The position numbers and the translations under genes are program-made. The notes under the pieces are model-generated. The model saw only the letters and a list, made by a program, of their open reading frames with translations, was not told the origin of the DNA and made no database searches. A stretch of DNA of 64,000 nt, taken from NCBI RefSeq assembly GCF_036373705.1, contig NC_089869.1, positions 15,584,050 to 15,648,049 of the forward strand. The letters run 5' to 3'. The DNA is from Amia ocellicauda (lineage: Eukaryota; Chordata; Actinopteri; Amiiformes; Amiidae). This document shows, in pieces, positions 17,740 through 64,000 of this stretch (the stretch's first letter is position 1; each line of letters begins with the position of its first letter).

Positions 17740-17754
17740 GTAGAGTGTATGAAA

Positions 17755-37229: not shown

Positions 37230-40200
37230 CTAGATGTCTTTCTGTGAAGCAATGGGTTCTGTTATTACTTTAGCTGGGTCAGCATGATGCTCCTTTTCTG
37301 GTACTTTTGTTTCTTGCGTTTTAGTTTTAGTTGTATCCTCCACGGCTGCTTCATTTTCATCAAAGCCGTTCTCTTGAATTTCTAGTTTGACTTCTTCCTT
37401 TGACTTTGTTTGAGGCTCTTTCTTTTCTTTCAAATCACTGGTCACTATTTTTTCTTCTTTGCCCTCGTCTTTTACCAGTGAATCCTTAACAGGCTTTTCC
37501 TCTTTAGAGCTGCTACTTGTTTGTTCCTTGCCCTCAGAGTCTTGCCTGCCTACTCTTTCCTGTGGCTTCTCTTTCTGTGGAATCTCCTCTGTGTGCTTCA
37601 CTTCTGCTTTGTCTGGTGGTGTGCTTTCACCTGACTTCCTGCTGTCTGTTGCAGACTCTTGAGGTTTGGGTTCTACTTTTTGCGAATCTCCTGTCTGTTC
37701 AGATTTGACCTCATGCTCCTCCAATTTAGCTATTGTGGTGACCCCTGGTTCTTCAGTCTTCTCTTCTTTGGCATCTGCAGTGCTGTCAGTTTCCCTCTCT
37801 GCTTTGGGAGACGGGCTTGGCTCAGGCTTCTGGGGTCCCTCTGATTCTTTCTCTGTAACTTTCTCTACAGTAGCCGTGACCTTTTCTAATGCTTTATCCA
37901 CTGATGCGCTGGGCTTGTCTGCAGACACTGCTCTGGCCTCACTTTGGTCAGACACTGCAGTGCTGCCCTCTGTGGGTTTCAACTCACTCACACTCTCCTC
38001 TTTTGAGGGGGTTGTGGATTCAGCTTTAGTATCTGCAGTTATTTCAGGTTTTGAAGAATCATCTTTTGATTTCAATGGACTTGCCACTTCCTCTGTTGGA
38101 AGATCTTCAGATACAACTTTATCCGAGTCTGATAGCTGTTCATCCTCCTCTGTCTTCACCTGCTTGACAGTTTCCTTTACGGGACTTTCCTTCAGTTCTA
38201 CTTTGACATCAGAGGGTTTCTCCTCTTCCTCAGCATCAGGTTTTGAGAGCACCTTTCCTTGTGGTTTAACTGAACTGTCTGCATCACTGGGTTCCTTGAG
38301 GGTTTCTTTCTCTGGACTGATGATCTTTTCAGGTTTCTCCTCTGCTGTGACAGTTTGCTCTTTTGGTTTAAGCTCCACTTTCTCTTTTACAGGACTCACC
38401 CGTTTTGTGTCTTCAGAGTCATCTGTTACTTCTTTCTGGGGTTTGTCCTCAGGAGGTACATCTGATCGAGATGCTTCTGTCTCATCCTTTTCTGAGATCT
38501 TTCCACTGTCGCTCTGTTGAGATTCATATTCATCCACTTTGTCTTCTGCTGCCTCTTTAGTTTCACTCAGTGTTTTTACTTCATCTGTAGTGTCCTTTAG
38601 GGCTTTTTCTGTAGCAGCTTTTTTGACTTCCCCCAAGGTCTTCACTGCCTCAGCGATGTCTTCCTTCACTTCCTTCTCCACCTTCGGGTTGTCGGTTTCC
38701 TTTTCCTCCACCGGTTCCACGTCTTCTGGGGCCTCTTCCACTGCAGGTTCCTCTTCAGCAGCACCTCCCTCTTCCTCTTCTTCAGCTGCACCTCCCTCTT
38801 CCTCTAATTCTTCAGCACCTTCCTCTTCCTCACCTCCAGGTGCAGTTTCTCCCTGGTCAGTGGTCTCGGTTAATATCTCTTCTCGCTGCTCCTCAGATGG
38901 AGTCCCCTGTTCCTCTTCAGGCTCCTTAGCTTCAGCTCCCTCCTCCTCTTCACTGCTCACTTTTCCAATCTTGTCATCCTCATCATTTGTTCCCTCAGAC
39001 GCCATGTCTTCAATCTCCATCATCTCTACTTCCTTGGTCGTTTCTGTTATGATCTCCTCCACAAACTTGTATTGTGGTTCTGCCTTTGCAGTCCTGCTCT
39101 TCGGCCTTGTGAGGCTCGGGAGAGTGTACACTGGGGATTGTCTGTATACATAAGGCACTGAACCCTGGGCACCAGACACTGAAGAGAGGCGGGTTTCTTC
39201 CCCTTCCAGAAGTTTCCTAAAAAAAGAAATGTAATTACTAAGGTAAAGGGTAGGGCAATTATTTTGCAATTTGTAAATATTATGTGGATGTTTATACTGA
39301 CCACTAGGCATGGATTATTCAGAACCAAATGTTATTCTCTGTTGTACTGTGTTTTCTACATTTTAATAAAATCTATAGATCATCGTTCTGAAAAATGTTA
39401 CACATCAAAGTAATTTATTAAAACATGAGCTCAATCACATACATTCCATGAATTATATTATTTTTAAACATGCGTGTAAAACGTGTAAATGATTAAACAA
39501 TATATTTGTGTCAGAAAGCAAATTATCTGTATTTTTCACAGAAATGTTGATTTTTCATAAACTAATTATTACCTGTAAGAAGCAATTTCCACATCCAGTG
39601 CCATTTTGACATTAAGCAGATCCTGGTATTCCCTAAGGTGGCCAGACATCTCATACTTTGTATGTTTTAGTTCATGCTCCAGTCCTCTGATGGTGTCCTG
39701 CAAAAGCATCATCACATCAGATTAACGCAATAGCTCAGCAAGCACAATATGTCCTGATGAATAAAACAATATGGAGAATTATTGGCTGATATAATACAGT
39801 CAATATTAGTTTCATATCCATATGTTGTTTAATGCTCAGTTCTTTAAAAATGCTAATGCCATTTGGTTGATATGTTCTTTTTGAAATATTGTTTTATATA
39901 ATTTATATTTATTTAAAAATATATATTGTATGATATTTATGTAAAGAAAAATCAGTACTAAACATTTAAATTGTTACAAATCTTACAATAATTATAATTA
40001 GTCAAATTAAGACTACATATGCAGGTCTTTTGAATAGATTTTCAGGTTTAAAAGTGTAATGCAGATTATTTATTTATGCAATACATATTTTAACCGCTTA
40101 TTAATATACTTATGTCATTGGAGGGTATAACACAAGTTTTATTACGTTTAGCTGTCAACAATATATAATATTCTTACCTGGTAATGACTGATTTCTGCAT

Positions 40201-41179
40201 CGTGTCTTTCTTCGAGGTCATTCAGCTGTTTGTCCAGAGCCTCTTTGGTGCCTTTCACCGTCTCCAGCTCAATGCTCTTGGACTGCAGGTGTCTTCTGTG
40301 CTCGTTGATTTCCTGTCTGGTGGCCCGCAGGGCTTCACTGTTGATTTCGGCGGCTTTGGTCAGTTTTTCCACCCGAGCACGGAAACCCTCCTCGGCTTGC
40401 TGGATGCTGCAGCCGGTGTGACCTTCAAGCTGCTTCCTGATATCCCTCAAAGCCGCAGTGATGTCTGCCTTGCCAAAATCTTTGACTTCTACCCCAACTT
40501 GAGCTTCCTGGATTTGGGCCAACATCTCACACACCTCCTGTTGGTGGTTTTTCTTCAGGAAAATGATCTCTTCAACGAGTGACTGAGATTTCTTTTCCAG
40601 TTCCATCTTAGACAGGTATGCGTCATTAATATCTTTTTTCAATGTCATTATGCTGGCCTCGGTGTCTGTTTTCTGACGAACTTCGTTTTCATATTTATCC
40701 CGTAAAATATAGAAATCTTCCTCCAGATGTTGCTGATCTTGTTCAATTTGACGCTTTTGTTGAGTGATTTCGTGAACAAGTTTGCGCAGGTCTTTAATCT
40801 CGGGGTCGTAGACCTGAGCCAGGGATGAAGGGCTGGCTTTCTTCTGCCTAAGTTCTTCAATTTCCTTCTCCAAAATCGTGTTCTGGCTCTCCAACAGACG
40901 CACCTTGTCTATGAAGCCGGCAAAGCGGTCGTTCAGCCCCTGCAGCAGCTCCTTTTCATTCATATGCGTTAGTTTCAGCTCTCCGGAGACATGGTTGGCA
41001 AAATCAAAGCTGAGATTGGAGCCGTATTCATTTTTCAGCATCACATTGCTCCTTTTGAAAGACGAGGTGTTGCCGGTGTTCACCGAGCTCCTGGGGAACA
41101 GAGATCCGAGTCTCTTTTGCTGAGATCGGAGGACATCGCTGTGGGGTCTCCTGTGTGGAGAACTTGTGAGATACTCCAT
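37230..41179 (-). CDS. Neurofilament-medium-like type IV intermediate filament protein, copy A (three exons)
   Basis: Coding exons are 41179-40178 (1002 nt), 39697-39573 (125 nt) and 39216-37230 (1987 nt). They give 1037 residues plus stop. The two introns lie where NEFM has them: phase 0 after ..SHYQ and phase 2 just before KLLEGEET. The head covers residues 1-80; coil 1A starts at LNDRFAGF (residue 82) and the rod ends at LLEGEET (about 378-384). The post-rod stretch with YKFVEEII is specific to NEFM. The tail is rich in E, K, S and P, has Glu runs, and ends [11 protein letters not shown]. It contains one copy of the unit that is multiplied in copies B and C ([19 protein letters not shown] and following), with four S-P-x-K sites suited to proline-directed kinases such as CDK5 or ERK. 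Such proteins co-assemble into axonal 10-nm filaments. I cannot decide whether this is true nefm or a lost-in-mammals ohnologue, so no symbol is given. Confidence 0.92.
40178..40563 (-). other. Gene-conversion-like tract in exon 1 of copy A
   Basis: These 386 bases, from TTTTCCTGAAG to the last base before the donor, match 47247-47632 of copy B (inverted) with about four differences by eye, synonymous positions included. The rest of exon 1 is strongly diverged, and similarity stops a few bases into the intron. Confidence 0.8.
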
Positions 41180-46627: not shown

Positions 46628-49600
46628 ATGGAATACCGGACAGGTTCTCCGCATAGGCGAGGCCGTGCCGAGTGCGCCCGATTTAACCCGAAGCTCGGCT
46701 CATCTGTAGACCAGCAGTTTCCTCGGACCTCTCATGGATCCGTTTCTTTTAAGAGAAGTAATGGAAGGACGACAGAACAATACAACCGTCCAGTCCTCAG
46801 ACAACCCGATAGAACAGAGTTTGCACAGCAGCTGAGATATGAAAATGCCGATGAAAAACAGGTGCTCCATGGGCTGAATGACCGCTTCGCTGGCTTCATT
46901 GAGAAAGTCCATCAATTGGAAAATGAAAACAAAACTTTAGAAAAAGAGATTAGCGAGCTTAGGCAGAAGGAAGCATCGTCTTTTGCTTTAGCTGAAGTTT
47001 GCGACCCAGAAATTACAGATCTGAGGAGACTCGTTCAAGAGATCACCCTCCAAAAGGCTCAGATTGCATTGGAGCAGATTCGTGTAGAGGAAGATGTGGC
47101 TGTTCTTAATTTAAAGCTTGAAGACAAATCCCGACTTAGATCCTATACCGAGGACACTATTAAGACTTTGAAGAAGGCTGTTGATGATGCTAATCTATCG
47201 AAAATGGAGTTGGAAAAGAGAGTCAACTCCCTCCTTGAAGAAATACTTTTCCTGAAGAAAAACCACCAACAGGAGGTGTGTGAGATGTGGGCCCAAATCC
47301 AGGAAGCTCAAGTTGGGTTAGAAGTCAAAGATTTTGGCAAGGCAGACATCACTGCGGCTTTGAGGGATATCAGGAAGCAGCTTGAAGGTCACACCGGCTG
47401 CAGCATCCAGCAAGCCGAGGAGGGTTTCCGCACTCGGGTGGAAAAACTGACCAAAGCCGCCGAAATCAACAGTGAAGCCCTGCGGGCCACCAGACAGGAA
47501 ATCAACGAGCACAGAAGACACCTGCAGTCCAAGAGCATTGAGCTGGAGACGGTGAAAGGCACCAAAGAGGCTCTGGACAAACAGCTGAATGACCTCGAAG
47601 AAAGACACGATGCAGAAATCAGTCATTACCAGGTAAGATCGAAGGCCATTTATTAGAACATTTTTTACATTCATGAATTCAAGTACTGCGAAGCGTTTCA
47701 CTAAATGCATGCATTACTGTCTGCTTAGAAATGTTGGTATAATTGAACATATGACTGTATAACCCCTCAGAAAAATAGAGATTGTTTATTGCTCTTCAAT
47801 GCATTTGCAAGGACTCTATTTTAATTATATGTATAATGTTCAATCCAACTTAATGTTAGTTTACATGTTTCCATGTTTTGTATATTATTCGGTTTAATTC
47901 AGTCTTGTTAATGCTTTAATCGTATCTTTTTTGCATTCAACTCTGACTAAATAACGTTGTGGAAACAATGTAATAAAGTGAAGTTAGAATAATATAGTGT
48001 TGTAACAACACATTTGTAAAATCCAATGAATATTGTCTAAACATTGTAAAAGTATACAATTACATTCATAAAACAACTTTCTACAGAAACAATTCTCACA
48101 AATTCCAAATTAGAGTGAAATGAAAATATTACATAAATAAATATACTTACACACGTATATAGTCATATAGCTAAAAATAGAATTGCATTTTATATGTATT
48201 GTAATTCCAGAAATTGATTTATGAAATGTGCATTCAGTGTTACTGTGCCAAAATCACATCGATATCAATGTGTTGTCAGGGTAAAACACAGTTCTGATGT
48301 GTAAGCTGAGATGGATTGACATTAGGTAGTACAACAATTACAGTTCTGTATATAAACTTAATTAAACAGAGTAATGTAATGTAAAATGTTGATGTGTTGC
48401 TTTGCAGGATACAGTCACTCAGTTGGAGACTGAGCTGAATCACACCAAATTTGACATGTCTGGACACTTGAGAGAATACCAGGATCTGATGAATGTCAAA
48501 ATGGCATTAGATGTGGAAATAGCATCTTACAGGTAATAGCAGCGTAATCTTGGTGTGCTCTACATATAGACTTGAATAGGAGCCTGCAATGGTTCCTTTA
48601 AGTTATCCATTCTCTTCTACTGTACTACTTGTGCAACAATATAATTCTAGCATGAAACACAATCTAGTCTTCTCCCAGAGTTGAGGGAGGAAGGGGTTCA
48701 GACTATTATAACTCAAGGTGTATGTTAAGACTTTGTGAAAGGTGTGTCTGATTAACTGCAGTCATAAATATTATGAAGTTAAAATGGAGATTAAACATTT
48801 TGCTTTACTGCATGCTGTGTAGGGACTAAAAACATTTTTTTTACATAACAAATGTATTCTTCAAAAATAACACACCTAAGAAATGTACAAAACTGTTTGA
48901 TTTCATGCTGAGAAAGTATATTGAAATATCTTGGCATGTACTATATCAAGCAAATTGATTTATTGTATATCCTATTTACACCTGTGTAATGCATTTTTTA
49001 TTTTTTTTAAGGAAACTACTGGAAGGGGAAGAAACCCGCCTCTCTTCAGTGTCTGGTGCCCAGGGTTCAGTGCCTTATATGTATAGACCATACCCAGTGT
49101 ACACTCTCCCGAGCCTCACGAGGCTGAAGAGCAGGACTGGAAAGGCAGAACCACAGTACAATTTTGTGGAGGAGATCATAACAAAAACGACCAAGGAAGT
49201 AGAGATGATGGAGATTGAAGATGCAGCATCTCAGGGAACAAATGGTGACTATGACAAAATTTGGGAAGTGAGCAGTGAAGAAGAGGAGGCAGCTGAAGCT
49301 CAGGAGCCTGAAGAGAAACAGGAGACTCCAGGAGCAGATGAGCAGCGAAAAGAGATGTTACCCGAGGCCACTGACCAGGGAGAAACTGCAGCTGGAGGTA
49401 AAGAAGAGGGAGGTGCTGTTGAATTAGAGGAAGAGGTCCCAGAAGACATGGAACAGGTGGAGGAAACAGATGATCTGAAGGTGGAGAAGGAGGTGACAGA
49501 AGACATCGCTGAGGCAGTGGAAACCTTGGGGGAGGTCAAAGAAGCTGCTACAGAAAAAGCCCTAAATGACTTAAAAACACTGAGTGAAACTAAAGAGGCA

Positions 49601-51964
49601 GCAGAAGACATAGTGGATGATTCTGAATCTCAACATAGTGAGAAAACAGAACTACAATCAGATGAACCTCCTGAGGACAAACCCCAGAAAGAAGTAACAG
49701 ATGACTCTGAAGACACAAAGCGGGTGAGTCCTGTAAAAGAGAAAGTGGAGCTTAAACCAAAAGAGCAAACTGTCACATCAGAGGAGGAGAAACCTGAAAG
49801 GATCATCAGTCCAGAGAAAGAAACCCTCAAGGAACTGCAAGAAATAGAGCTTTCAAAACCTGATCCTGAGGAAGAAGAGAAACCCACAGATGTCAAAGCA
49901 CAGCTTAAGGAAAGTCCCGTAAAGGAAACGGTCAAGCAGTTGAATACAGAGGAGGATTCTGTGTCAAAATCTGAAAAGACTGAACAGCAAACAGGCTCAG
50001 ATAAAGTGGTAGCTGAGGACCTTCCAACAGAGGAAGTGGTGAGCCCATTGAAATCAAAAGATGATCCTTCACAACCTGAAATAGATGTATACAAAATAAC
50101 TGCAGATACTAAACTTGAATCACAAGAGAGCGACAGTGCAAGGATCTCAGAAAAGGATGAGAAAGAAGCATCTCGATCAGATGTACCTACTGAGGACAAA
50201 CCCCAGAAAGAAGTAACAGATGACTCTGAAGACACAAAGCGGGTGAGTCCTGTAAAAGAGAAAGTGGAGCTTAAACCAAAAGAGCAAACTGTCACATCAG
50301 AGGAGGAGAAACCTGAAAAGATCATCAGTCCAGAGAAAGAAACCCTCAAAGAACCCAGTGATGCAGACAGTTCAGTTCAACCACAAGAAATAGAGCTTTC
50401 AAAACCTGATCCTGAGGAAGAAGAGAAACCCACAGATGTCAAAGCACAGCTAAAGGAAAGTCCCGAAAAAGAAACTGTCGAGCAGGTGAATACAGAGGAG
50501 GATTCTGAGTCAAAATCTGAAAAGACTGGACAGCAAATAATCTCAGATAAAGTGGTAGCTGAGGACCTTCCAACACAGGACGTGGTGAGCCCATTGAAAT
50601 CAAGAGACGATCCTTCAAAACCTGAAATAGACGTATACAAAATAACTGCAGATACTAAACTTGAATCACAAAAGAGTGACAGTGCAATGATCTCAGAAAA
50701 GGATGAGAAAGAAGCATCTCGATCAGATGAACTTCCTGAGGACAAACCCCAGACAGAAATAACAGATGACTCTGAAGACACAAGGCGGGTGAGTCCTGTA
50801 AAAGAGAAAGTGGATCTTAAACCAAAAGAGCAAACTGTCACATCAGGGGAGGAGAAACCTGAAAGGATCATCAGTCCAGAGAAAGAAACCCTCAAGGAAC
50901 CACAAGAAATAGAGCTTTCAAAACCTGATCCTGAGGAAGAAAAGAAACCCTCAGATGTCAAAGCAGAGCTTAAGGAAAGTCCCGTAAAGGAAACGGTAAA
51001 GCAGTTGAATACAGAGGAGGATTCTGTGTCAAAATCTGAAAAGACTGAACAGCAAACAGGCTCAGATAAAGTGGTAGCTGAGGACCTTCCAACAGAGGAA
51101 GTGGTGAGCCCATTGAAATCAAAAGACGATCCATCACAACCTGAAATAGACGTATACAAAATAACTGCAGATACTAAACTTGAATCACAAGAGAGCGACA
51201 GTGCAAGGATCTCAGAAAAGGATGAGAAAGAAGCATCTCGATCAGATGTACCTCCTGAGGACAAACCCCAGAAAGAAGTAACAGATGACTCTGAAGACAC
51301 AAAGCGGGTGAGTCCTGTAAAAGAGAAAGTGGAGCTTAAACCAAAAGAGCAAACTGTCACATCAGAGGAGGAGAAACCTGAAAGGATCATCAGTCCAGAG
51401 AAAGAAACCCTCAAGGAACCACAAGAAATAGAGCTTTCAAATCCTGATCCTGAGGAAGAAGAGAAACCCACAGATGTCAAAGCACAGCTTAAGGAAAGTC
51501 CCGTAAAGGAAACTGTCGAGCAGGTGAAGACAGAGGAGGAGGACCAGCTATCAGACTCAAGGAAGGTTATATCTGAAGATCTTCCATCTGAGGAATTGGG
51601 GAGTCCATTGAAATCAAGAGACGATTCTTTAAAACCTGAAATAAGCGTAGAGAAAATAACTGCAGATACTAAAGCTGAATCCACAACCCTTTCAAAAGAG
51701 GAGAGTGTGAGTGAGTTGAAACCCACAGAGGGCAGCACTGCAGTGTCTGACCAAATTGAGGCCAGAGCAGTGTCTGCAGACAAGCCCAGCGCATCAGTGG
51801 ATAAAGCATTAGAAAAGACCACGGCTACTGTAGAGAAAGTTACAGAGAAAGAATCAGAGGGAAAGTCAGGTGAAAGCACAACACCAGACAAAGTAGAAGA
51901 AATGAAGCACACAGCACACTCTGAGGGCAAGGAACAAACAAGTAGCAGCTCTAAAGAGGAATAG
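46628..51964 (+). CDS. Neurofilament-medium-like type IV intermediate filament protein, copy B (three exons)
   Basis: Coding exons are 46628-47632 (1005 nt), 48408-48532 (125 nt) and 49012-51964 (2953 nt), giving 1360 residues plus stop. Intron positions and phases equal those of copy A and NEFM. The head is residues 1-82, coil 1A begins [17 protein letters not shown] at residue 83, and the rod ends LLEGEET at about 379-385. The tail continues with [20 protein letters not shown] and then four tandem units of 173 or 182 residues, each with four S-P-x-K motifs. Relative to copy A the C-terminus is changed: about 70 residues are missing before KSGEST, and a TAG follows SSSSKEE where A continues for nearly 90 residues. 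The first half of the rod differs strongly from A, the last 128 residues of exon 1 are almost identical to A, and exon 2 is intermediate. Expected role: axonal filament subunit with a phosphorylatable side arm. Confidence 0.93.
47247..47632 (+). other. Gene-conversion-like tract in exon 1 of copy B
   Basis: This is the partner of 40178-40563 in copy A and encodes coil 2 from [12 protein letters not shown] to the exon end. It is shared identically with copy C. Confidence 0.8.
49673..51670 (+). repeat. Four tandem tail-coding units in copy B
   Basis: Units begin with EDKPQ at 49673, 50192, 50738 and 51257, so spacings are 519, 546 and 519 bases, all multiples of three. The 27-base difference is an optional segment encoding PSDADSSVQ. 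Each unit holds [24 protein letters not shown] (or KESPEKET) and VVSPLKS. The fourth unit diverges after about 51600 into the unique C-terminal region shared with copy A. Confidence 0.93.
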
Positions 51965-52460
51965 ACTGTCAAAGAAGCAGAGAAGCCTGTTAAGGATTCA
52001 CTGGTAAAAGACGAGGGTAAAGAAGAAAAGAAAGCTGACCAGTGATTTGAAAGAAAGGATTAGTTCTGAAAAAGAGCCTATATTTCAAGGGAATGGCTTT
52101 GGTGCAAGTGAACATACCACTCAGGATATGACAAAACCGCAGACCCCAGGGTTTCCCAAAAAGATATCTAAGTGTACTGAAAATCAAAAACGACGCTGGA
52201 AAGTTTAAAATTGATTTGAAGAAGTGCATGTGAAAAGCTAAGGCTGAGCAATAATGCAAAATTCAATACATCTTTGGAAACGCTGAGAGAATATGTTATT
52301 GGTACATGAAATCTGTGCACTAGTATTACAGGCCTTTCACAGATAAGCTTGACAGCTTTGACTGTATGGTGCTATCTCATTCAGTGTCACTATATTGTAT
52401 TGTGGCATCACTGAATCTTCTTCATCACTACAGTACTTCCTTCTGGTCTAAAATAAATAT
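51965..52460 (+). other. Former tail-coding sequence and 3' untranslated region of copy B
   Basis: Just after the TAG, the sequence AAGCCTGTTAAGGATTCACT and its surroundings still match the coding tail of copy A ([15 protein letters not shown]). Further stops and frame changes follow. AATAAA at 52452-52457, in CTAAAATAAATATTG, is the likely polyadenylation signal. Confidence 0.7.
52452..52457 (+). terminator. Polyadenylation signal of copy B (candidate)
   Basis: AATAAA about 490 bases after the stop, followed by T-rich sequence (TGTCTGCCTTTTTCTTTTTC). Confidence 0.55.
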
Positions 52461-53800
52461 TGTCTTGCTGAGAAAATCATTGTCTGCCTTTTTCTTTTTC
52501 AAATATAATCATAAAATGATTGATCCATTATTAAAGAGTTGAATTCATAAACATAATATCAATATGCTTTCAATCGGATGTTGATAGTTGTTAAAAGTCC
52601 AGTCTTTACATTGTCTTAATTTTTATTTATGTATATTATGTATATCATGATTGTAATGATTGTATTAAGCACCATAATGTGATCAGAACATCAGATTATT
52701 TATAAAACATACCTTAAACTGAGACTGTGTCATAGTACACACTACAGACCTGTAGATTTGACACAGCCCCACTGCTGCAGTTCATCAGCACTTGTTTATA
52801 GGAGAAATAATTAAGATAGGCACAATACTCAGTGAACCAAAACGTTTATTTGCAAAGGTTACAAATGAAAATACAGAGCATGTCGTTCTCAGCATCCAAT
52901 ACTGAGAGTTTAGAATTCATGTTTATACAAGAATATTAGAAGACCCAAAATAATAACTTATTCCAATTACTCAACAGGTAAATTGGGAAACCATAATCTC
53001 ATTGAAGGATGTACAGATTCAATAGTTGCGGATGATTGCTGATGAAAGCAAAACAAAATAATCAGTTGTTCATCTCAACACAAAACTAAGTATCACCAGT
53101 TGGCACAATCTTAAACATTCAGGTCACTATGCTCTAACTAAGCTTCCCTCCCTTACCTCAACTATTTTGTTTTTTCTTAACCCTTCAGATACATTTGCTG
53201 TGTTATTAAATCCATACTGTCCCTCAACCTTCACAATCAGAATGGTTTAAATCAATGTGTTTGTTATTAAGCTTACAATTAAGAATATGATAAATATTAA
53301 GAATATGATTTTTTCTAATGAAAAAGCAGGAAGTGTCTTACAAATAGTAACTAATAAGTAATAATAGGTAACTTATAGTTTATAGAAAGTTTTAAAAGTG
53401 ATATAAATTAACCAGTAGTACCCAAAAGAAATTAACTAGTTTATGTGTATGAAAACATATTTTCATATATGGCTATTTGGTCATTCTTTGTGAATTATAT
53501 AATTGGCAATCCATAATGTTAAACATAGGGAGGTCATTTAAATATGCAAATATCTGGATTTACATGTCCTGAATTATCTTCCAATGCTCTTTAAATTCTA
53601 TTTTCATGATGATGTAAGTCCCAAAGTGATCCCAGTAAGTGCCAAAGCAGCAGATGTGTGAGTGATTACTCTCAGACTCAGCACTCATGCAAATCCCAAT
53701 TTGTTTCATTATTACAACTGTAGGGAAGGTAACAATTTATAAAATATACAATAATTGTATACTTCAATAGAAAATAGGTTAAGATTAATAATTTGTATCT
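52461..53800. other. Intergenic DNA, no gene seen
   Basis: About 1.3 kb of AT-rich sequence between copy B and the solo LTR. I found no exon, RNA gene or transposon end. Confidence 0.5.
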
Positions 53801-53805
53801 GACCC

Positions 53806-54165
53806 TGTGGCAGGGAGGGGGTTAATTGTCCCTCCCTGTCTGCTCATGAACTGCTGGTGGTTGGGGTGATTGATCAATTAAGTTCAATCAACCCCAGCCA
53901 CCTGCTATATAAGGAGGCCTCAGCCGCCCATTAGGTAGTTTGTGTTGGAGAGTTAGGTGTGGGAGGAAGCAAGCACTGTGTTGTGTGTGCTGTTTTGTTT
54001 CGGGGTTGAAGTTTGGTTTCTGGCCACGGTGAAGTACTTTGACCAGCGTGTGTATTTTGGCTTGTTTGGTTGGCTAACATTATTTGTTAATACATTTAAT
54101 AAAAGTATTGTTTTTCAATACCTGCGGTCTGTCTCTGAGCCTCCATTCCTGGCCACCCCACCTCA
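53806..54165 (+). mobile_element. Solo LTR of an LTR retrotransposon
   Basis: The 360-bp element begins TGTGGCAGGG and ends CCACCTCA, so it has the TG..CA borders. It is flanked on both sides by the same five bases, GACCC (53801-53805 and 54166-54170). It contains a TATA box (TATATAA at 53906-53912) and, about 190 bases later, AATAAA at 54098-54103, the order expected for U3-R-U5. No internal coding region lies next to it, so it is probably the product of recombination between two LTRs. The superfamily cannot be named without the internal part. Confidence 0.8.
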
Positions 54166-54332
54166 GACCCATACACTCATATCAAAGAAACCCTTTCATT
54201 TAATTACAGACATTTCATTTATAACATCTAATTGATTATTGTATACTTTAATTGTTTGTACAGGAGTGACCAATAGGAATTACATTATTGAAAGAGTTAC
54301 AAGCAGGGTTGGGAGAATCGGGAGGTTTCTGG

Positions 54333-54333
<1 letters not shown>

Positions 54334-54376
<43 letters not shown>
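54334..54376. repeat. Poly-A / (TA)n tract at the LINE 3' end
   Basis: About 15 A followed by about 14 TA units directly border the 3' end of the minus-strand LINE, as expected for a simple-repeat LINE tail. Confidence 0.85.
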
Positions 54377-54379
<3 letters not shown>

Positions 54380-56131
54380 AACATAAGAAAGTTTACAAAC
54401 GAGAGGAGGCCATTCGACCCATTATGCTCGTTTGGTGTCCATTAATAACTAAGTGATCCAAGGATCCTATCCAGTCAATTTTTAAATGTTCCCAAATTTT
54501 CAGCGTCATCCACATCGCTGGGGAGTTTGTTCAGATTGTGACGCCTCTCTGTGTGAAGAAGTGTCTCCTGTTTTCTGTCTCGAATGCCTTGAAGCCCAAT
54601 TTCCATTTGTGTCCCCGGGTGCGTGTGTCCCTGCTGATCTGGAAAAGCTCCTCTGGTTTGATGTGGTTGATGCCCTTCATGATTTTGAAGACTTGGATCA
54701 AGTCCCCATGTAGTCTCCTCTGTTCCAGGGTGAAAAGGTTCAGTTCCTCAGTCTCTCAGTAGGACTTTCCCTTCAGACCTGGAATAAGTCTGGTTGCTCT
54801 CCTCTGAACTGCCTCTAGAGCAGCGATATCCTTCTTGAAGTGTGGAGCCCAGAACTGTCCACAGTATCCAGATGAGCTCTAACTAGTGCATTGTACAGTC
54901 TGAACATCACTGCCCTTGTTCTCAATTCTACACTTTTGACAATATACCCTAACACTGCGTTTGCCTTTTTTATTGCTTCCCCACATTGTTTGGATGGAGA
55001 AAGTGAGGAGTCCACATAGACTCCTAGGTCTTTCTCATGCGATACTTCATCTAGTTCTATTCCTCCCAAAGTGTAATTATAGTGGACATTTTTGTTACCT
55101 GCATGTAATACCTTGCACTTGTCCACATTGAATTTCATCTGCCAGGTGTCGGCCCACAACTGAATGTTATCTAAGTCCCTTTGAATGACCTGTGCTGCCG
55201 AGATTGTATCTGCTGAGCCACCTATTTTAGTATCATCTGCAAATTTGACAAGTTTGCTAAGTATCCCAGAGTCCAGATCATTAATATAGATTAGAAATAG
55301 CACAGGCCCTAGTACTGATCCCTGTGGAACTCCACTAACAACCTCTCTCCAGTTAGAAGCGACTCCTCTAATCGACACCCTCGGTTTCCTAGACATCAAC
55401 CAGTTCATAATCCATCTACTTACATTACCCTGAATGCCTACAGCTTCCAATTTGAGGATCAGTCTTTGGTGTGGAACCTTATCAAAGGCTTTTTGAAAAT
55501 CTACGTATATCATATCATATGCTTTCACATGATCTACAGCTGCAGTTACATGTTCAAACAATTCGAATAAATTAGTAAGACATGATCTGCCTCGTCTAAA
55601 CCCATGTCGACCCATCTCCAAGAATATGGTTTTCATTAAGATGCTCCTCTATTTTCTGTCTAATAATTTTTTCCAACATTTTACAGGTGATGCAGGTGAG
55701 ACTGATTGGTCTGTAATTTCCTGGCTCAGTTTTGTCCCCTTTCTTGTGGATTGGTATGACATTTGCTGTCTTCCAGTCAGTCGGCACATCCCCTGTTCTA
55801 AGTGTCATTTGGAATAATCGAGTTAGCGGCCTATAAATAATTTCCCTAATTTCTTTAAGTACTGTTGGAAATATCCCATCTGGCCCAGGTGATTTGTTTG
55901 TTTTTAATTCTGCAGTCCCTTTAGTACCTCCTACTCATTTATCCTGATCTCTCTTAAGGTTTGAATGGACTGGCTGTTAACCTGTGGCATGTTGTCCGTT
56001 TTTTCTTTTGTAAAAACCTCTGTGAAATACTCATTTAGAACATTTGTTACATCTTGTTCGTTTTCTAAGATACTTCCATTTTTGCCCTTTATATATAGCC
56101 TATATACAATAGTTTCATCGGCCGTGTTCAC
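54377..56131 (-). mobile_element. 5'-truncated CR1/Rex-like LINE (non-LTR retrotransposon)
   Basis: The element reads on the minus strand, with its 3' end at 54377 (sequence around AACATAAGAAAGTTTACAAA, a very common 3' end in non-teleost fish) and a truncated 5' end near 56130. It has kept the reverse transcriptase region and C-terminal domain but not the endonuclease. It lies between the two nearly identical neurofilament-like genes. Confidence 0.82.
54478..56131 (-). pseudogene. LINE reverse transcriptase pseudogene
   Basis: Fragments in order on the minus strand are NEYFTEVFTKEKTDN (about 56040), IPIHKKGDKTEPGNYRPISL (about 55740), HGFRRGRSC, YVDFQKAFDKVPH (first catalytic Asp), GVPQGSVLGPVLF, and KFADDTKI (the catalytic Asp pair). 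The C-terminal part KLGFKAFETENRRHFFTQR..VTIWNKLPSDV follows. The main piece, 54815-55636, is open for 273 residues, but frameshifts separate it from the parts on both sides. The 5' part of ORF2 is missing. Confidence 0.85.
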
Positions 56132-56149
56132 TGTGAGCGTGGCCTGAAT

Positions 56150-56962
56150 AGCACACAGCCGTTGTACTGGTGTCTGTATATGCGCTTCAGCGGGTAGACG
56201 AGGATTATGACTGCCGTTTTAGACAAAAGTAGTCAATTATATACATTTGTAATCATGCTAAAATCACTAGCATGATTACACACACCAACATACACTTTGT
56301 ATATTATCCTCCATTAAACTACATCGAATAAACACACAAAATAAACCGCGATTAGCTCTCATCTGGGGATCCTAACATCCAAGCTTTCTCTGATGAATTA
56401 TATGTTTGACTTGCTTCGGGTGGAAGCTTTCAACCAGCTAGAGCTTTAAACAAGAAACACAAACTTGCAGTTTGCAATATTGTCTTTTGGAAAGTAAGCG
56501 ACACCTAATACTGTGAACTGTTTATTTCGTGCGTGTTTGTCATTACAGTAAATGTCTGTGCGCAGTCTGCGTTTCCTCCCACTGTGCAAAGCCACTATGG
56601 ACAATGTAAATGGTGTGCAATACTAAATCAAATATTAACACCATATTCACAATATGTGTATGTGTGTGTATCGTGTAGTATGTGTGTGCATACACACGTC
56701 TGTGTCTGTAACTATTTATCGTTATAGCATTATGCGTTGTCCTAAAGGGGATATTGTAACGCATCTTGTTCTGACAGGGATACTTTTATATGTTTGTGTA
56801 ATCTGTTTATTTGGTCAATGCATTCTCTTTAATGTATTTGATCCTCCTATCATTAAATTATTGACTAATGGTTCGTCATCAGCTTTCTTTTTCTTCATTT
56901 TAATTACTTTAATTTTGTAGCACAGGGCTGTCTGATAGTGTAGTGATGCACAGTTTGGAAAC
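56150..56962. other. Unassigned DNA left of the second duplication copy
   Basis: About 800 bases with no gene recognised. A TG/TATG-rich stretch lies at about 56655-56705. Confidence 0.5.
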
Positions 56963-57750
56963 GTTCAGACTATGAAGTCATCAGTCACAATAGTGAATCT
57001 GGGATTAATTAATTTAATATTCAGATATAAAAATGTGCTTTCTGTGCAAGCTGTGATGAGACTCACACAATTCAGTTAGATTTATGTTTTAGTTAAATCA
57101 GCTCAGATCCCTAATTAATGCGTGTATACATTTTTCATATGATGTATAAATATATAAATAGTGTCTGTTTATCATCAGGGGTAAAACATATCTGTCCTCC
57201 TATCTATTTATCAAACACACACATACACTTCGAATTCTCAAAAGTATGATGTAAAAGTAAGAAAAGTAAGATGTAAGAAAATGCTATGGAAATCTATTGT
57301 GTTAATTCAACCCCAGTCAATCAAGGGCTGTAGTTTCTTTCAATTTTTATTCCACCTGAGCTCTTATCTCCTTAGCTGAACTATTGTCCTAATTGTCCCA
57401 CCTGAACTATCTTCCCCAGCGTTTAAGGCACTAATGATTCAAAGGGAGTTATACACCTGTGTTAAAGTGTAGAAAGTCTGACTCAGGGTTTGTCTAAAAA
57501 TCATTTGCCCACAGTTACAATGTTATAATGTGATTAATGCGAAACCCCATGTCTAATATGAATTCAGTTCAGTTTTGTCCAGACTACTTTCAAATGAAGG
57601 GTGTGAAAACTTTTACAGCTGTTTGTGAGGACGGGGTTTTCTGCTGTTGTACAATTAACTCGCAAGTCAGATCTTTTACATCTCCAAGTATCGATTTCCC
57701 CCCTCAGCAGTATGGACAGCTCCATTGTGCAACGTAAGCTACGGCAGTGC

Positions 57751-57757
57751 TATATAA
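57751..57757 (+). promoter_or_regulatory. TATA box of copy C
   Basis: Identical in sequence and distance to the box of copy B (GTGCTATATAAGCCAGTG, 49 bases before the ATG). Confidence 0.65.
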
Positions 57758-57805
57758 GCCAGTGTGTGAGGGCTTTCAGTTCAGGCACTGCTATTCTGTA
57801 CCACG

Positions 57806-60800
57806 ATGGAATACCGGACAGGTTCTCCGCATAGGCGAGGCCGTGCCGAGTGCGCCCGATTTAACCCGAAGTTCGGCTCATCTGTAGACCAGCAGTTTCC
57901 TCGGACCTCTCATGGATCCGTTTCTTTTAAGAGAAGTAATGGAAGGACGACAGAACAATACAACCGTCCAGTCCTCAGACAACCCGATAGAACAGAGTTT
58001 GCACAGCAGCTGAGATATGAAAATGCCGATGAAAAACAGGTGCTCCATGGGCTGAATGACCGCTTCGCTGGCTTCATTGAGAAAGTCCATCAATTGGAAA
58101 ATGAAAACAAAACTTTAGAAAAAGAGATTAGCGAGCTTAGGCAGAAGGAAGCATCGTCTTTTGCTTTAGCTGAAGTTTGCGACCCAGAAATTACAGATCT
58201 GAGGAGACTCGTTCAAGAGATCACCCTCCAAAAGGCTCAGATTGCATTGGAGCAGATTCGTGTAGAGGAAGATGTGGCTGTTCTTAATTTAAAGCTTGAA
58301 GACGAATCCCGACTTAGATCCTATACCGAGGACACTATTAAGACTTTGAAGAAGGCTGTTGATGATGCTAATCTATCGAAAATGGAGTTGGAAAAGAGAG
58401 TCAACTCCCTCCTTGAAGAAATACTTTTCCTGAAGAAAAACCACCAACAGGAGGTGTGTGAGATGTGGGCCCAAATCCAGGAAGCTCAAGTTGGGTTAGA
58501 AGTCAAAGATTTTGGCAAGGCAGACATCACTGCGGCTTTGAGGGATATCAGGAAGCAGCTTGAAGGTCACACCGGCTGCAGCATCCAGCAAGCCGAGGAG
58601 GGTTTCCGCACTCGGGTGGAAAAACTGACCAAAGCCGCCGAAATCAACAGTGAAGCCCTGCGGGCCACCAGACAGGAAATCAACGAGCACAGAAGACACC
58701 TGCAGTCCAAGAGCATTGAGCTGGAGACGGTGAAAGGCACCAAAGAGGCTCTGGACAAACAGCTGAATGACCTCGAAGAAAGACACGATGCAGAAATCAG
58801 TCATTACCAGGTAAGATCGAAGGCCATTTATTAGAACATTTTTTACATTCATGAATTCAAGTACTGCGAAGCGTTTCACTAAATGCATGCATTACTGTCT
58901 GCTTAGAAATGTTGGTATAATTGAACATATGACTGTATAACCCCTCAGAAAAATAGAGATTGTTTATTGCTCTTCAATGCATTTGCAAGGACTCTATTTT
59001 AATTATATGTATAATGTTCAATCCAACTTAATGTTAGTTTACATGTTTCCATGTTTTGTATATTATTCGGTTTAATTCAGTCTTGTTAATGCTTTAATCG
59101 TATCTTTTTTGCATTCAACTCTGACTAAATAACGTTGTGGAAACAATGTAATAAAGTGAAGTTAGAATAATATAGTGTTGTAACAACACATTTGTAAAAT
59201 CCAATGAATATTGTCTAAACATTGTAAAAGTATACAATTACATTCATAAAACAACTTTCTACAGAAACAATTCTCACAAATTCCAAATTAGAGTGAAATG
59301 AAAATATTACATAAATAAATATACTTACACACGTATATAGTCATATAGCTAAAAATAGAATTGCATTTTATATGTATTGTAATTCCAGAAATTGATTTAT
59401 GAAATGTGCATTCAGTGTTACTGTGCCAAAATCACATCGATATCAATGTGTTGTCAGGGTAAAACACAGTTCTGATGTGTAAGCTGAGATGGATTGACAT
59501 TAGGTAGTACAACAATTACAGTTCTGTATATAAACTTAATTAAACAGAGTAATGTAATGTAAAATGTTGATGTGTTGCTTTGCAGGATACAGTCACTCAG
59601 TTGGAGACTGAGCTGAATCACACCAAATTTGACATGTCTGGACACTTGAGAGAATACCAGGATCTGATGAATGTCAAAATGGCATTAGATGTGGAAATAG
59701 CATCTTACAGGTAATAGCAGCGTAATCTTGGTGTGCTCTACATATAGACTTGAATAGGAGCCTGCAATGGTTCCTTTAAGTTATCCATTCTCTTCTACTG
59801 TACTACTTGTGCAACAATATAATTCTAGCATGAAACACAATCCAGTCTTCTCCCAGAGTTGAGGGAGGAAGGGGTTCAGACTATTATAACTCAAGGTGTA
59901 TGTTAAGACTTTGTGAAAGGTGTGTCTGATTAACTGTAGTCATAAATATTATGAAGTTAAAATGGAGATTAAACATTTTGCTTTACTGCATGCTGTGTAG
60001 GGACTAAAAACATTTTTTTTACATAACAAATGTATTCTTCAAAAATAACACACCTAAGAAATGTACAAAACTGTTTGATTTCATGCTGAGAAAGTATATT
60101 GAAATATCTTGGCATGTACTATATCAAGCAAATTGATTTATTGTATATCCTATTTACACCTGTGTAATGCATTTTTTATTTTTTTTAAGGAAACTACTGG
60201 AAGGGGAAGAAACCCGCCTCTCTTCAGTGTCTGGTGCCCAGGGTTCAGTGCCTTATATGTATAGACCATACCCAGTGTACACTCTCCCGAGCCTCACGAG
60301 GCTGAAGAGCAGGACTGGAAAGGCAGAACCACAGTACAATTTTGTGGAGGAGATCATAACAAAAACGACCAAGGAAGTAGAGATGATGGAGATTGAAGAT
60401 GCAGCATCTCAGGGAACAAATGGTGACTATGACAAAATTTGGGAAGTGAGCAGTGAAGAAGAGGAGGCAGCTGAAGCTCAGGAGCCTGAAGAGAAACAGG
60501 AGACTCCAGGAGCAGATGAGCAGCGAAAAGAGATGTTACCCGAGGCCACTGACCAGGGAGAAACTGCAGCTGGAGGTAAAGAAGAGGGAGGTGCTGTTGA
60601 ATTAGAGGAAGAGGTCCCAGAAGACATGGAACAGGTGGAGGAAACAGATGATCTGAAGGTGGAGAAGGAGGTGACAGAAGACATCGCTGAGGCAGTGGAA
60701 ACTTTGGGGGAGGTCAAAGAAGCTGCTACAGAAAAAGCCCTAAATGACTTAAAAACACTGAGTGAAACTAAAGAGGCAGCAGAAGACATAGTGGATGATT

Positions 60801-63800
60801 CTGAATCTCAACATAGTGAGAAAACAGAACTACAATCAGATGAACCTCCTGAGGACAAACCCCAGAAAGAAGAAACAGATGACTCTGAAGACACAAAGCG
60901 GGTGAGTCCTGTAAAAGAGAAAGTGGAGCTTAAACCAAAAGAGCAAACTGTCACATCAGAGGAGGAGAAACCTGAAAGGATCATCAGTCCAGAGAAAGAA
61001 ACCCTCAAGGAACTGCAAGAAATAGAGCTTTCAAAACCTGATCCTGAGGAAGAAGAGAAACCCACAGATGTCAAAGCACAGCTTAAGGAAAGTCCCGTAA
61101 AGGAAACGGTCAAGCAGTTGAATACAGAGGAGGATTCTGTGTCAAAATCTGAAAAGACTGAACAGCAAACAGGCTCAGATAAAGTGGTAGCTGAGGACCT
61201 TCCAACAGAGGAAGTGGTGAGCCCATTGAAATCAAAAGATGATCCTTCACAACCTGAAATAGATGTATACAAAATAACTGCAGATACTAAACTTGAATCA
61301 CAAGAGAGCGACAGTGCAAGGATCTCAGAAAAGGATGAGAAAGAAGCATCTCGATCAGATGAACTTCCTGAGGACAAACCCCAGACAGAAATAACAGATG
61401 ACTCTGAAGACACAAGGCGGGTGAGTCCTGTAAAAGAGAAAGTGGATCTTAAACCAAAAGAGCAAACTGTCACATCAGGGGAGGAGAAACCTGAAAGGAT
61501 CATCAGTCCAGAGAAAGAAACCCTCAAGGAACCACAAGAAATAGAGCTTTCAAAACCTGATCCTGAAGAAGAAAAGAAACCCTCAGATGTCAAAGCAGAG
61601 CTTAAGGAAAGTCCCGTAAAGGAAACGGTAAAGCAGTTGAATACAGAGGAGGATTCTGTGTCAAAATCTGAAAAGACTGAACAGCAAACAGGCTCAGATA
61701 AAGTGGTAGCTGAGGACCTTCCAACAGAGGAAGTGGTGAGCCCATTGAAATCAAAAGACGATCCTTCACAACCTGAAATAGACGTATACAAAATAACTGC
61801 AGATACTAAACTTGAATCACAAGAGAGCGACAGTGCAAGGATCTCAGAAAAGGATGAGAAAGAAGCATCTCGATCAGATGTACCTCCTGAGGACAAACCC
61901 CAGAAAGAAGTAACAGATGAGTCTGAAGACACAAAGCGGGTGAGTCCTGTAAAAGAGAAAGTGGAGCTTAAACCAAAAGAGCAAACTGTCACATCAGAGG
62001 AGGAGAAACCTGAAAAGATCATCAGTCCAGAGAAAGAAACCCTCAAAGAACCCAGTGATGCAGACAGTTCAGTTCAACCACAAGAAATAGAGCTTTCAAA
62101 ACCTGATCCTGAGGAAGAAGAGAAACCCACAGATGTCAAAGCACAGCTAAAGGAATGTCCCGAAAAAGAAACTGTCGAGCAGGTGAATACAGAGGAGGAT
62201 TCTGTGTCAAAATCTGAAAAGACTGAACAGCAAACAGGCTCAGATAAAGTGGTAGCTGAGGACCTTCCAACAGAGGAAGTGGTGAGCCCATTGAAATCAA
62301 AAGATGATCCTTCACAACCTGAAATAGATGTATACAAAATAACTGCAGATACTAAACTTGAATCACAAGAGAGCGACAGTGCAAGGATCTCAGAAAAGGA
62401 TGAGAAAGAAGCATCTCGATCAGATGAACTTCCTGAGGACAAACCCCAGACAGAAATAACAGATGACTCTGAAGACACAAGGCGGGTGAGTCCTGTAAAA
62501 GAGAAAGTGGATCTTAAACCAAAAGAGCAAACTGTCACATCAGGGGAGGAGAAACCTGAAAGGATCATCAGTCCAGAGAAAGAAACCCTCAAGGAACCAC
62601 AAGAAATAGAGCTTTCAAAACCTGATCCTGAAGAAGAAAAGAAACCCTCAGATGTCAAAGCAGAGCTTAAGGAAAGTCCCGTAAAGGAAACGGTAAAGCA
62701 GTTGAATACAGAGGAGGATTCTGTGTCAAAATCTGAAAAGACTGAACAGCAAACAGGCTCAGATAAAGTGGTAGCTGAGGACCTTCCAACAGAGGAAGTG
62801 GTGAGCCCATTGAAATCAAAAGACGATCCTTCACAACCTGAAATAGACGTATACAAAATAACTGCAGATACTAAACTTGAATCACAAGAGAGCGACAGTG
62901 CAAGGATCTCAGAAAAGGATGAGAAAGAAGCATCTCGATCAGATGTACCTCCTGAGGACAAACCCCAGAAAGAAGTAACAGATGAGTCTGAAGACACAAA
63001 GCGGGTGAGTCCTGTAAAAGAGAAAGTGGAGCTTAAACCAAAAGAGCAAACTGTCACATCAGAGGAGGAGAAACCTGAAAAGATCATCAGTCCAGAGAAA
63101 GAAACCCTCAAAGAACCCAGTGATGCAGACAGTTCAGTTCAACCACAAGAAATAGAGCTTTCAAAACCTGATCCTGAGGAAGAAGAGAAACCCACAGATG
63201 TCAAAGCACAGCTAAAGGAATGTCCCGAAAAAGAAACTGTCGAGCAGGTGAATACAGAGGAGGATTCTGAGTCAAAATCTGAAAAGACTGGACAGCAAAT
63301 AATCTCAGATAAAGTGGTAGCTGAGGACCTTCCAACACAGGACGTGGTGAGCCCATTGAAATCAAGAGACGATCCTTCAAAACCTGAAATAGACGTATAC
63401 AAAATAACTGCAGATACTAAACCTGAATCACAAAAGAGTGACAGTGCAATGATCTCGGAAAAGGATGAGAAAGAGGCATCTCGATCAGATGAACCTCCTG
63501 AGGACAAACCCCAGACAGAAATAACAGATGACTCTGAAGACACAAGGCGGGTGAGTCCTGTAAAAGAGAAAGTGGATCTTAAACCAAAAGAGCAAACTGT
63601 CACATCAGGGGAGGAGAAACCTGAAAGGATCATCAGTCCAGAGAAAGAAACCCTCAAGGAACCACAAGAAATAGAGCTTTCAAAACCTGATCCTGAGGAA
63701 GAAATGAAACCCTCAGATGTCAAAGCAGAGCTTAAGGAAAGTCCCGTAAAGGAAACGGTCAAGCAGTTGAATACAGAGGAGGATTCTGTGTCAAAATCTG

Positions 63801-64000
63801 AAAAGACTGAACAGCAAACAGGCTCAGATAAAGTGGTAGCTGAGGACCTTCCAACAGAGGAAGTGGTGAGCCCATTGAAATCAAAAGATGATCCTTCACA
63901 ACCTGAAATAGACGTATACAAAATAACTGCAGATACTAAACTTGAATCACAAGAGAGCGACAGTGCAAGGATCTTAGAAAAGGATGAGAAAGAAGCATCT
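57806..64000 (+). CDS. Neurofilament-medium-like type IV intermediate filament protein, copy C (partial, runs off the window)
   Basis: Coding exons are 57806-58810, 59586-59710 and 60190 to beyond 64000, with no stop in the last one; at least 1647 residues are encoded. Exon borders and phases equal copy B. The first two exons differ from B by only two changes I noticed (Leu to Phe in the head, NPKFGSS; Lys to Glu in the rod, LEDESR). The rod is complete, from [12 protein letters not shown] to LLEGEET. The tail is longer than in B, with at least six tandem units in the window against four. Two long units carry KECPEKET where B has KESPEKET, removing one S-P-x-K serine. The gene looks intact as far as visible. 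It may be the most extended side-arm form of the cluster, or an assembly copy of B with an altered repeat count. Confidence 0.9.
60851..64000 (+). repeat. Tandem tail-coding units in copy C (at least six)
   Basis: Units begin with EDKPQ at 60851, 61370, 61889, 62435, 62954 and 63500, spaced 519, 519, 546, 519 and 546 bases. From 61370 the pattern is a dimer of 519 + 546 = 1065 bases, repeated at 62435 and again from 63500. All spacings preserve the frame. The array continues past the window edge. Confidence 0.93.

Follow-up and report, generated by a model that had tools for sequence, protein, structure and literature searches.

A third NEFM/NEFH-type branch of filament genes with a tandemly repeated SPxK tail module in Amia ocellicauda

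Neighbouring filament genes of Amia ocellicauda carry different numbers of one long tail module, which raises the question of what these genes are, how their tails came to differ, and whether the module makes a phosphorylated side arm comparable to the KSP side arm of mammalian neurofilaments. The locus lies in a stretch of 64,000 nucleotides of contig C26 (NC_089869.1; C26:15584050-15648049), hereafter the window, in which an original prediction made from the letters had recognised a three-copy, neurofilament-like cluster. We analysed the window together with 20 kb before and 70 kb after it (154 kb in all; positions above 64000 continue the window numbering) and searched the genome of 988 Mb in 385 contigs. 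The cluster proved to hold five copies, A to E, all on C26, with D and E beyond the window. Taking all parts jointly, we consider it probable that this is an NEFM-related cluster, likely an ohnolog, whose SPxK module grew by unequal crossing-over, was homogenised by gene conversion and would serve as an acidic side arm.

The SPxK module and its copies

Each gene has three exons, with splice sites of the GT-AG type (read in A and in B to E) and a second intron, in phase 2, that splits the arginine codon at the YR/KLLEGEE border in A to E. Copy A, on the minus strand, comprises exon 1 at 40178-41179 (334 residues, covering the head, coil 1 and the greater part of coil 2, with apparent gene conversion with B to E in its final part), exon 2 at 39573-39697 (the end of coil 2, DTIRGLE...ASYR, with its last codon split over the intron) and exon 3 at 37230-39216, which encodes a tail with one unit of the module. 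Copy B, on the plus strand, has exon 1 at 46628-47632 (335 residues, of which 74 form the head), exon 2 at 48408-48532 and exon 3 at 49012-51964, ending in a TAG stop at 51962. Copy C, also on the plus strand, has exon 1 at 57806-58810 (335 residues), exon 2 at 59586-59710 and exon 3 at 60190-67948, with the frame open to 67945; the window holds 60190-64000 of this last exon. The tails number 661, 983 and 2,585 residues in A, B and C, that of C running without a stop across all 2,585 codons, and the whole proteins 1,037, 1,360 and 2,962 residues (116, 153 and 333 kDa).

Copies D and E differ from these three. D is similar to B from 80482 onwards, lacks its first codons, the start among them, and carries a deletion of 8 bp at 83119. 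In E, exon 1 is intact (90526-91530), and an in-frame TAA follows 903 tail residues, at a place that differs from a C unit by substitutions with no indel. The intact copies are A, B and C; D is broken, and E carries one in-frame stop. As a separate observation, B, C and D share a common stop after SSSSKEE (51962-51964 in B) and the frame of A continues to SQKDI, so that the tail end of the B family is truncated. A 27-bp tandem repeat of three copies (38752-38831) also lies within the Glu-rich part of the A tail.

Units were counted with the anchor RVSPVKEKV, which also delimits the unit borders. This gives one unit in A, four in B, 13 in C, two in D and five in E (25 in total), at spacings of 519 or 546 bp and hence with lengths of 173 or 182 codons. 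The original prediction had given one, four and at least six units for A, B and C, with these same lengths and spacings in multiples of three, and the anchor count agrees throughout, six of the 13 units of C having started inside the window. The single unit of A (173 residues, four SPxK) occupies 37884-38402 on the minus strand, with its anchor at 38402. The anchors of B, on the plus strand, stand at 49721, 50240, 50786 and 51305 (spacings 519, 546 and 519 bp), marking units at 49721-50239 (173 residues), 50240-50785 (182), 50786-51304 (173) and 51305-51823 (173). The terminal unit of B is of the A type, being 92.7% identical to the A unit and about 78% to the internal units. In C, also on the plus strand, anchors run from 60899 to 67289, and units 1 to 6 (60899-64000) start at 60899, 61418, 61937, 62483, 63002 and 63548, the sixth being cut by the window end. 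Tandem Repeats Finder, with a longest period of 500, returned no report for the arrays.

Every unit has four SPxK slots, reading SPVK, SPEK, SPVK or SPEK, and SPLK, exactly as first described, and the residues before the four serines are V, I, E and V. The claim that V, I or E precedes the serine holds for the main slots, and KSP, like any other K-S/T-P, is absent from the tails of A, B and C and from that of E up to its stop; the claim fails at some fourth slots, where A is found in copy A and G in the final unit of each of B, C, D and E. In copy C, 49 of the 52 slots keep SPxK, and the three exceptions carry Cys for Ser at the third slot (units C3, C5 and C11). C5 and C11 do not differ anywhere in the unit, so that in this pair at least the Cys is a single change copied on. 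All SP dipeptides in the tails of B (16 of 16) and C (49 of 49) belong to SPxK motifs, as do four of the seven in A. In the three of the 25 units that were shuffled, the mean number of SPxK motifs per 173 residues was 0.22 to 0.33, as against the four observed (P ≤ 0.0002); these shuffles, together with the unit alignment, rule out a chance origin of the repeats. The tails gave no convincing Pfam family match (best E 0.18), and a genome search with the B tail, in which 47 of 196 candidates were scored, reported 18 matches, all of them in the cluster.

The units fall into two types. Each of the copies B to E ends in a unit that is 92.7 to 93.3% identical to the A unit and about 78% to the internal units; the internal units are thus a second type that multiplied. 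Among the units of C (terminal C13 omitted), mean identity is 94.7% at lag one, 96.2% at lag two, 98.0% at lag three and 97.1% at lag six, lag three being the highest of lags one to seven, and three pairs of units are identical (C2 and C4, C5 and C11, C6 and C12). The lag-three peak and the identical units are the signature of recent unequal exchange, with a higher-order period of three units, and the low divergence within the array likewise suggests that the expansion is recent; it may be lineage-specific, as first proposed.

Constraint, charge and phosphorylation of the tail

Whether the module is under selection was judged at the level of the motifs and of the whole unit. A motif column was admitted if 15 or more units had the same residue there, a choice that favours conservation, and the same columns served for the invariance test and for the dN/dS contrast. 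Over the 25 units, 11 of the 12 motif S, P and K columns are invariant, compared with 83 of 161 among the remaining columns (P 0.006) and with 28 of 48 among those remaining columns that hold S, P or K (P 0.028). The S, P and K of the motifs are the best-conserved part of the unit. In the comparison of the A unit with the units of B and C, dN/dS is 0.03 at motif columns and 0.59 elsewhere, which we do not treat as main evidence since the column choice favours conservation. Among 50 derived states in the 15 internal units of B and C (a count from which B4 and C13, as terminal units, were dropped together with every unit of A, D and E and any column absent from the consensus), no stop was found where 3.0 were expected (P 0.035).

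Several figures pull the other way and count against the reading we prefer. Constraint is weak overall, with dN/dS of 0.70 among the C units and 0.55 between the A unit and those of B and C. The same 50 derived states include 16 synonymous ones, against 11.7 expected (P 0.09). Between A and the B/C consensus, 12 of 12 motif residues are kept, as are 22 of the 27 S, P and K that lie outside the motifs in the portion reaching as far as the fourth one, a difference that is not significant (P 0.14); over the whole alignment, 32 of 47 such non-motif residues are kept. Set against the weak overall constraint, the invariance tests indicate that the motifs are probably being retained and that the greater part of the module is drifting. 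The original prediction of a selected coding repeat is accordingly borne out weakly.

NEFM and NEFH join NEFL-type filaments through their rod, and their tail projects. The array may be compared with the mammalian KSP side arm, and it is quite possible, in a reading that overlaps the one we prefer, that it is an independent equivalent of that arm driven by phosphorylation. The conservation of the motif residues and the confinement of every SP in the B and C tails to SPxK (16 and 49 motifs) speak for this, as does the description, in passages of one paper, of Cdk5 phosphorylating KSPXK motifs of neurofilaments (PMC11502590). The sites of the cluster nevertheless lack the lysine before the serine, and they are sparse: S/T-P sites number 1.5 to 2.0 per 100 residues in the cluster tails, as against 5.5 in the tail of this genome's own NEFH-like gene and 0.7 in that of its NEFM-like gene. 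The C tail is also acidic to begin with, having 741 acidic and 408 basic residues (net charge -333). Phosphorylation of every S/T-P would shift it to -437, a figure that also counsels caution towards our own reading, whereas full S/T-P phosphorylation would take the NEFH-like tail from -34 to -102. Phosphorylation would thus be a large switch for NEFH and a modest one for C, in which length is the most-changed variable. Since the C tail is already strongly acidic, length may outweigh phosphorylation.

Mouse data, in those passages of a review to which we refer (PMC3337605), also bear on the phosphorylation-driven reading, in that axon diameter fell when the NF-M tail was lost and stayed the same when Ser was replaced by Ala at the NF-M KSP sites. 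The same passages hold axon calibre to depend on neurofilament side arms and describe the relative parts of tail length and phosphorylation as disputed. Multi-site phosphorylation of the Amia side arm, as first proposed, is a putative property of the motifs, for which Cdk5- or ERK-type kinases would be the candidates.

Mosaic divergence and the history of the copies

Divergence between A and B changes abruptly along the gene. Over the initial part of exon 1, dS reaches 1.83 (saturated) and dN 0.40, giving dN/dS of 0.22; in the remainder of that exon, dS falls to 0.012 against B and to 0 against E. Exon 2 is again strongly diverged (dS 1.26, on 28 synonymous sites only), and exon 3 is less so, with dS of 0.17 at its start and 0.06 at its end. 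For the A unit, dS is 0.12 against the terminal units and 0.36 against all units of B and C. The similarity between A and B fades at most 6 to 27 bases from the exon-intron borders. Repeated conversion between inverted neighbours, wherever homology suffices, would be the simplest account of this mosaic.

Copies B to E are closer to one another. Their first introns differ by 0 to 1.1% (0 of 700 positions between B and C), and their 5' flanks by 4.8% between B and C and 0.3% between C and E. Intron 2 of E is 83 to 84% identical to that of B, C and D, a figure left unused, with a deletion of about 100 bases there. The 9.1-kb stretch 50690-59820 spanning B to C, LINE reverse transcriptase included, has a 98.3% identical counterpart spanning D to E.

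A decaying tandem cluster might also look like this. On that reading, B and C would be open only through the recent amplification of intact units, and B to E would have no function beyond that of A. The lost start and 8-bp deletion of D, the in-frame TAA of E, the weak constraint in the array and the near-identity of B and C in places, as in intron 1, are all in keeping with it. We nonetheless think it unlikely, as the C tail is free of stops, the derived states hold none of the stops expected, and the low dN/dS in the first part of exon 1, at so high a dS, argues that both the A and the B lineages have long been constrained.

Array lengths or the D-E block might instead be artefacts of assembly, from misjoined reads or haplotypes, and the identical unit pairs of C and the 98.3% match of the two blocks are what such errors might leave. 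This is improbable in our view. The 154 kb contain no N, the reported matches to the B tail (all 18, from the candidates scored) lie in this cluster, and an assembly from short reads should collapse an array of this kind rather than lengthen it. D moreover has a 5' flank of its own, 79% identical to that of B as far as 80481 (522 columns) and then 99.5% over the 219 bases compared, so that D is no allele of B. The diverged flank likewise makes it unlikely that D is a false haplotype duplication.

Other elements were seen in and around these blocks. The LINE reverse transcriptase (RVT_1) between B and C, at 54818-55648 on the minus strand, has a matching open reading frame (ORF) between D and E, at 87580-88410 on the minus strand, and its presence in both blocks implies that the insertion predates the block duplication. 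Two ORFs of 496 residues stand behind C and E in the duplicated block (70110-71597 and 98475-99962, both minus strand); the first is a TPR protein by Pfam, and we take both to resemble IFIT genes. A Tc1-like transposase fragment (DDE_3, HTH_SB, HTH_Tnp_Tc3_2) lies at 8899-9998 on the minus strand, and further Tc1-like fragments, recognised by eye, at 78548-79072 and 103896-104933.

Family placement, neighbours and known systems

The rods match the Filament family (PF00038; E 2.5e-69 for B and 7.5e-74 for A), and the conserved rod end is present in the cluster copies, as in type IV filaments. The nearest solved chain is vimentin (E 1.1e-52), and the 20 matches listed hold vimentin, GFAP, keratins and lamin. 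The few-intron pattern of type IV, with one intron in coil 2 and one at the YR/KLLEGEE border, is found in the cluster genes. The ORF borders of the genome's own INA-, NEFL- and NEFM-like genes fit the same layout, on borders alone, splice phases aside.

Four rod trees were built with IQ-TREE: a base tree, one from the first rod half only, one without A and one with type VI rods added. The rods of C and E were omitted from the last three and that of A from the tree without A, and D is in no tree. Human rows were entered by hand, and the names given to the genome's own genes derive from those rows, from their tail sequences and from their location. The base tree unites the cluster with NEFM and NEFH, apart from NEFL, INA and vimentin (support 100/100), and so do the trees with the first rod half only (99/99), without A (100/100) and with type VI rods added (100/100). 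Within this M/H group, a gene on contig C9 pairs with the human NEFM row (99/98 in the base tree), and the cluster stands outside the pair in all four trees, which rules it out as the NEFM orthologue. In the tree without A, the branch of B measures 1.0, compared with 0.11 plus 0.13 for the NEFM-like gene. The cluster is a third M/H-type branch of type IV intermediate filaments beside NEFM and NEFH. The original description as neurofilament-like is thus upheld for the class, with the qualification that these genes are not NEFM or NEFH themselves, each of which has its own separate counterpart in this genome.

The NEFM-like gene (C9:33.44 Mb) has no K-S/T-P in its tail, and the NEFH-like gene (C23:29.26 Mb) has 28, together with a regular KSPVEEKS run; its coil 2 contains an additional intron. 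As the NEFM-like tail also lacks KSP, that motif does not define the M/H group in this genome. Two further filament genes are of unsure class, one at C9:35.62 Mb that resembles NEFL/INA in the base tree and one at C19:2.99 Mb with a long branch there.

Type VI filaments have a short head, and membership of that class (nestin, transitin, synemin), to which the very long, charged, repetitive tail and the frequent repeats of type VI tails (PMC2075511, in part) might point, is highly improbable, because the cluster heads measure 73 to 74 residues and, in the tree with type VI rods added, which leads us to reject it, the rods of contigs C20 and C4, which we take to be type VI, split from the rest on very long branches (96/98) while the cluster stays with M/H.

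The neighbourhood offers a clue to the origin of this third branch. VDAC-type porin exons (PF01459) lie just upstream of the cluster at 32066-33636 on the plus strand (C26:15616115-15617685), with other VDAC-type matches at C9:33.027 Mb, at C11:21.40 Mb and, barely at the cut-off, on C18. Further upstream, a KAT6-type exon at C26:15.564 Mb, presumably KAT6B-like, finds its only other matches at C9:32.94 Mb. The NEFL-like (C9:33.42 Mb) and NEFM-like genes lie within about 0.5 Mb of these KAT6 and VDAC relatives, and both flanking families tested (KAT6 and VDAC) are therefore paired between C26 and C9. A SAM-domain exon at 17719-18360 on the plus strand, which we take to be SAMD8-like, has one close copy in the genome and two other matches 32 and 36% identical. 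A dual-specificity phosphatase match, also upstream, is weak (28.2 bits against a curated 33.5), and an INA-like gene lies on C26 as well, at 4.78 Mb. In human, KAT6B, SAMD8 and VDAC2 lie on 10q22, KAT6A and VDAC3 on 8p11, and NEFL and NEFM on 8p21.

A paralogon study, as far as its cited parts go, joins Hsa4, 5, 8 and 10, finds Hsa8 and Hsa10 most often sisters, and includes the NEF family, for which it gives a local duplication before the ray-finned/lobe-finned split and extra fish duplications (PMC2453138). Together with the paired neighbours, this fits an ohnolog of NEFM, and an origin of the cluster as the ohnolog of NEFM, in the early vertebrate genome duplications, appears most likely, on strong though indirect grounds. 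Three observations sit less well with it. The order of NEFM, NEFH and the cluster is a three-way split in three of the four trees and joins the cluster with NEFM at 80/79 in the tree with type VI rods; the KAT6 exon has no Pfam match, so that its name is presumptive; and contig C11 holds a third VDAC locus.

The NEFM-related cluster that we consider probable would work as follows. By analogy with NEFM and NEFH, the rod would join neurofilaments and the tail project as an acidic, disordered side arm, in genes that would be expressed in neurons. The tail exon carries the 173- or 182-residue module with its four proline-directed kinase sites, which unequal crossing-over would have multiplied in frame to four units in B and 13 in C. 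Gene conversion would homogenise part of coil 2 and the tail exon between copies, while head, coil 1 and exon 2 would remain anciently diverged between A and B to E. Both processes are read from the pattern of sequence identity.

More tentatively, a third M/H-class neurofilament gene from the early vertebrate duplications may survive here, with a side arm that is a length-tunable array still changing by unequal crossing-over and that gives a subunit of 333 kDa; the number of units may then differ from one individual to another and adjust the spacing of filaments and the calibre of axons. We know of no such third gene in mammals. The history of the neurofilament family is usually told with NEFL, NEFM, NEFH and INA, and a third M/H lineage, if true, would revise it. 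Neighbouring similar genes with one, four and 13 copies of one module (five in E, cut by its stop) also make a natural length series, in a genome whose NEFM-like gene lacks KSP and whose NEFH-like gene carries it, and with 13 units the side arm formed by C would be unusually long for a filament. Among the matches listed from open-licence papers, none had a cluster of this kind in its title.

Known systems resemble the cluster in part. Zebrafish neuronal filament genes, in the parts of the source cited, comprise nefma, nefmb, nefla, neflb, inaa, inab and neff1 (PMC10683209); the likeness, drawn from gene names, is to a fish neuronal filament family that keeps duplicates from genome duplication. 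Of these genes, neflb has been studied in SW13 vim-minus cells (PMC7291018). Type VI filaments such as nestin, transitin and tanabin share the long, repetitive, acidic tail, and the repeat number of nestin varies between species; they differ in rod class and in their short repeats, of seven residues in transitin and 11 in nestin (PMC2075511, in the passages concerned). NEFH shares the M/H branch and a long charged tail rich in S-P sites, but the NEFH-like gene of this genome is dense in KSP, whereas the sites of the cluster are spread sparsely across 173- or 182-residue modules. NEFM is like the cluster in rod class, in its three exons (by the ORF borders of the C9 gene), in its KAT6- and VDAC-type neighbours and at the start of the tail, where A is similar to HKFVEEIIEETKVEDE of the C9 gene; it is a separate gene in this genome, and the cluster differs from it in its long rod branch, its tail of SPxK modules and its lack of KSP.

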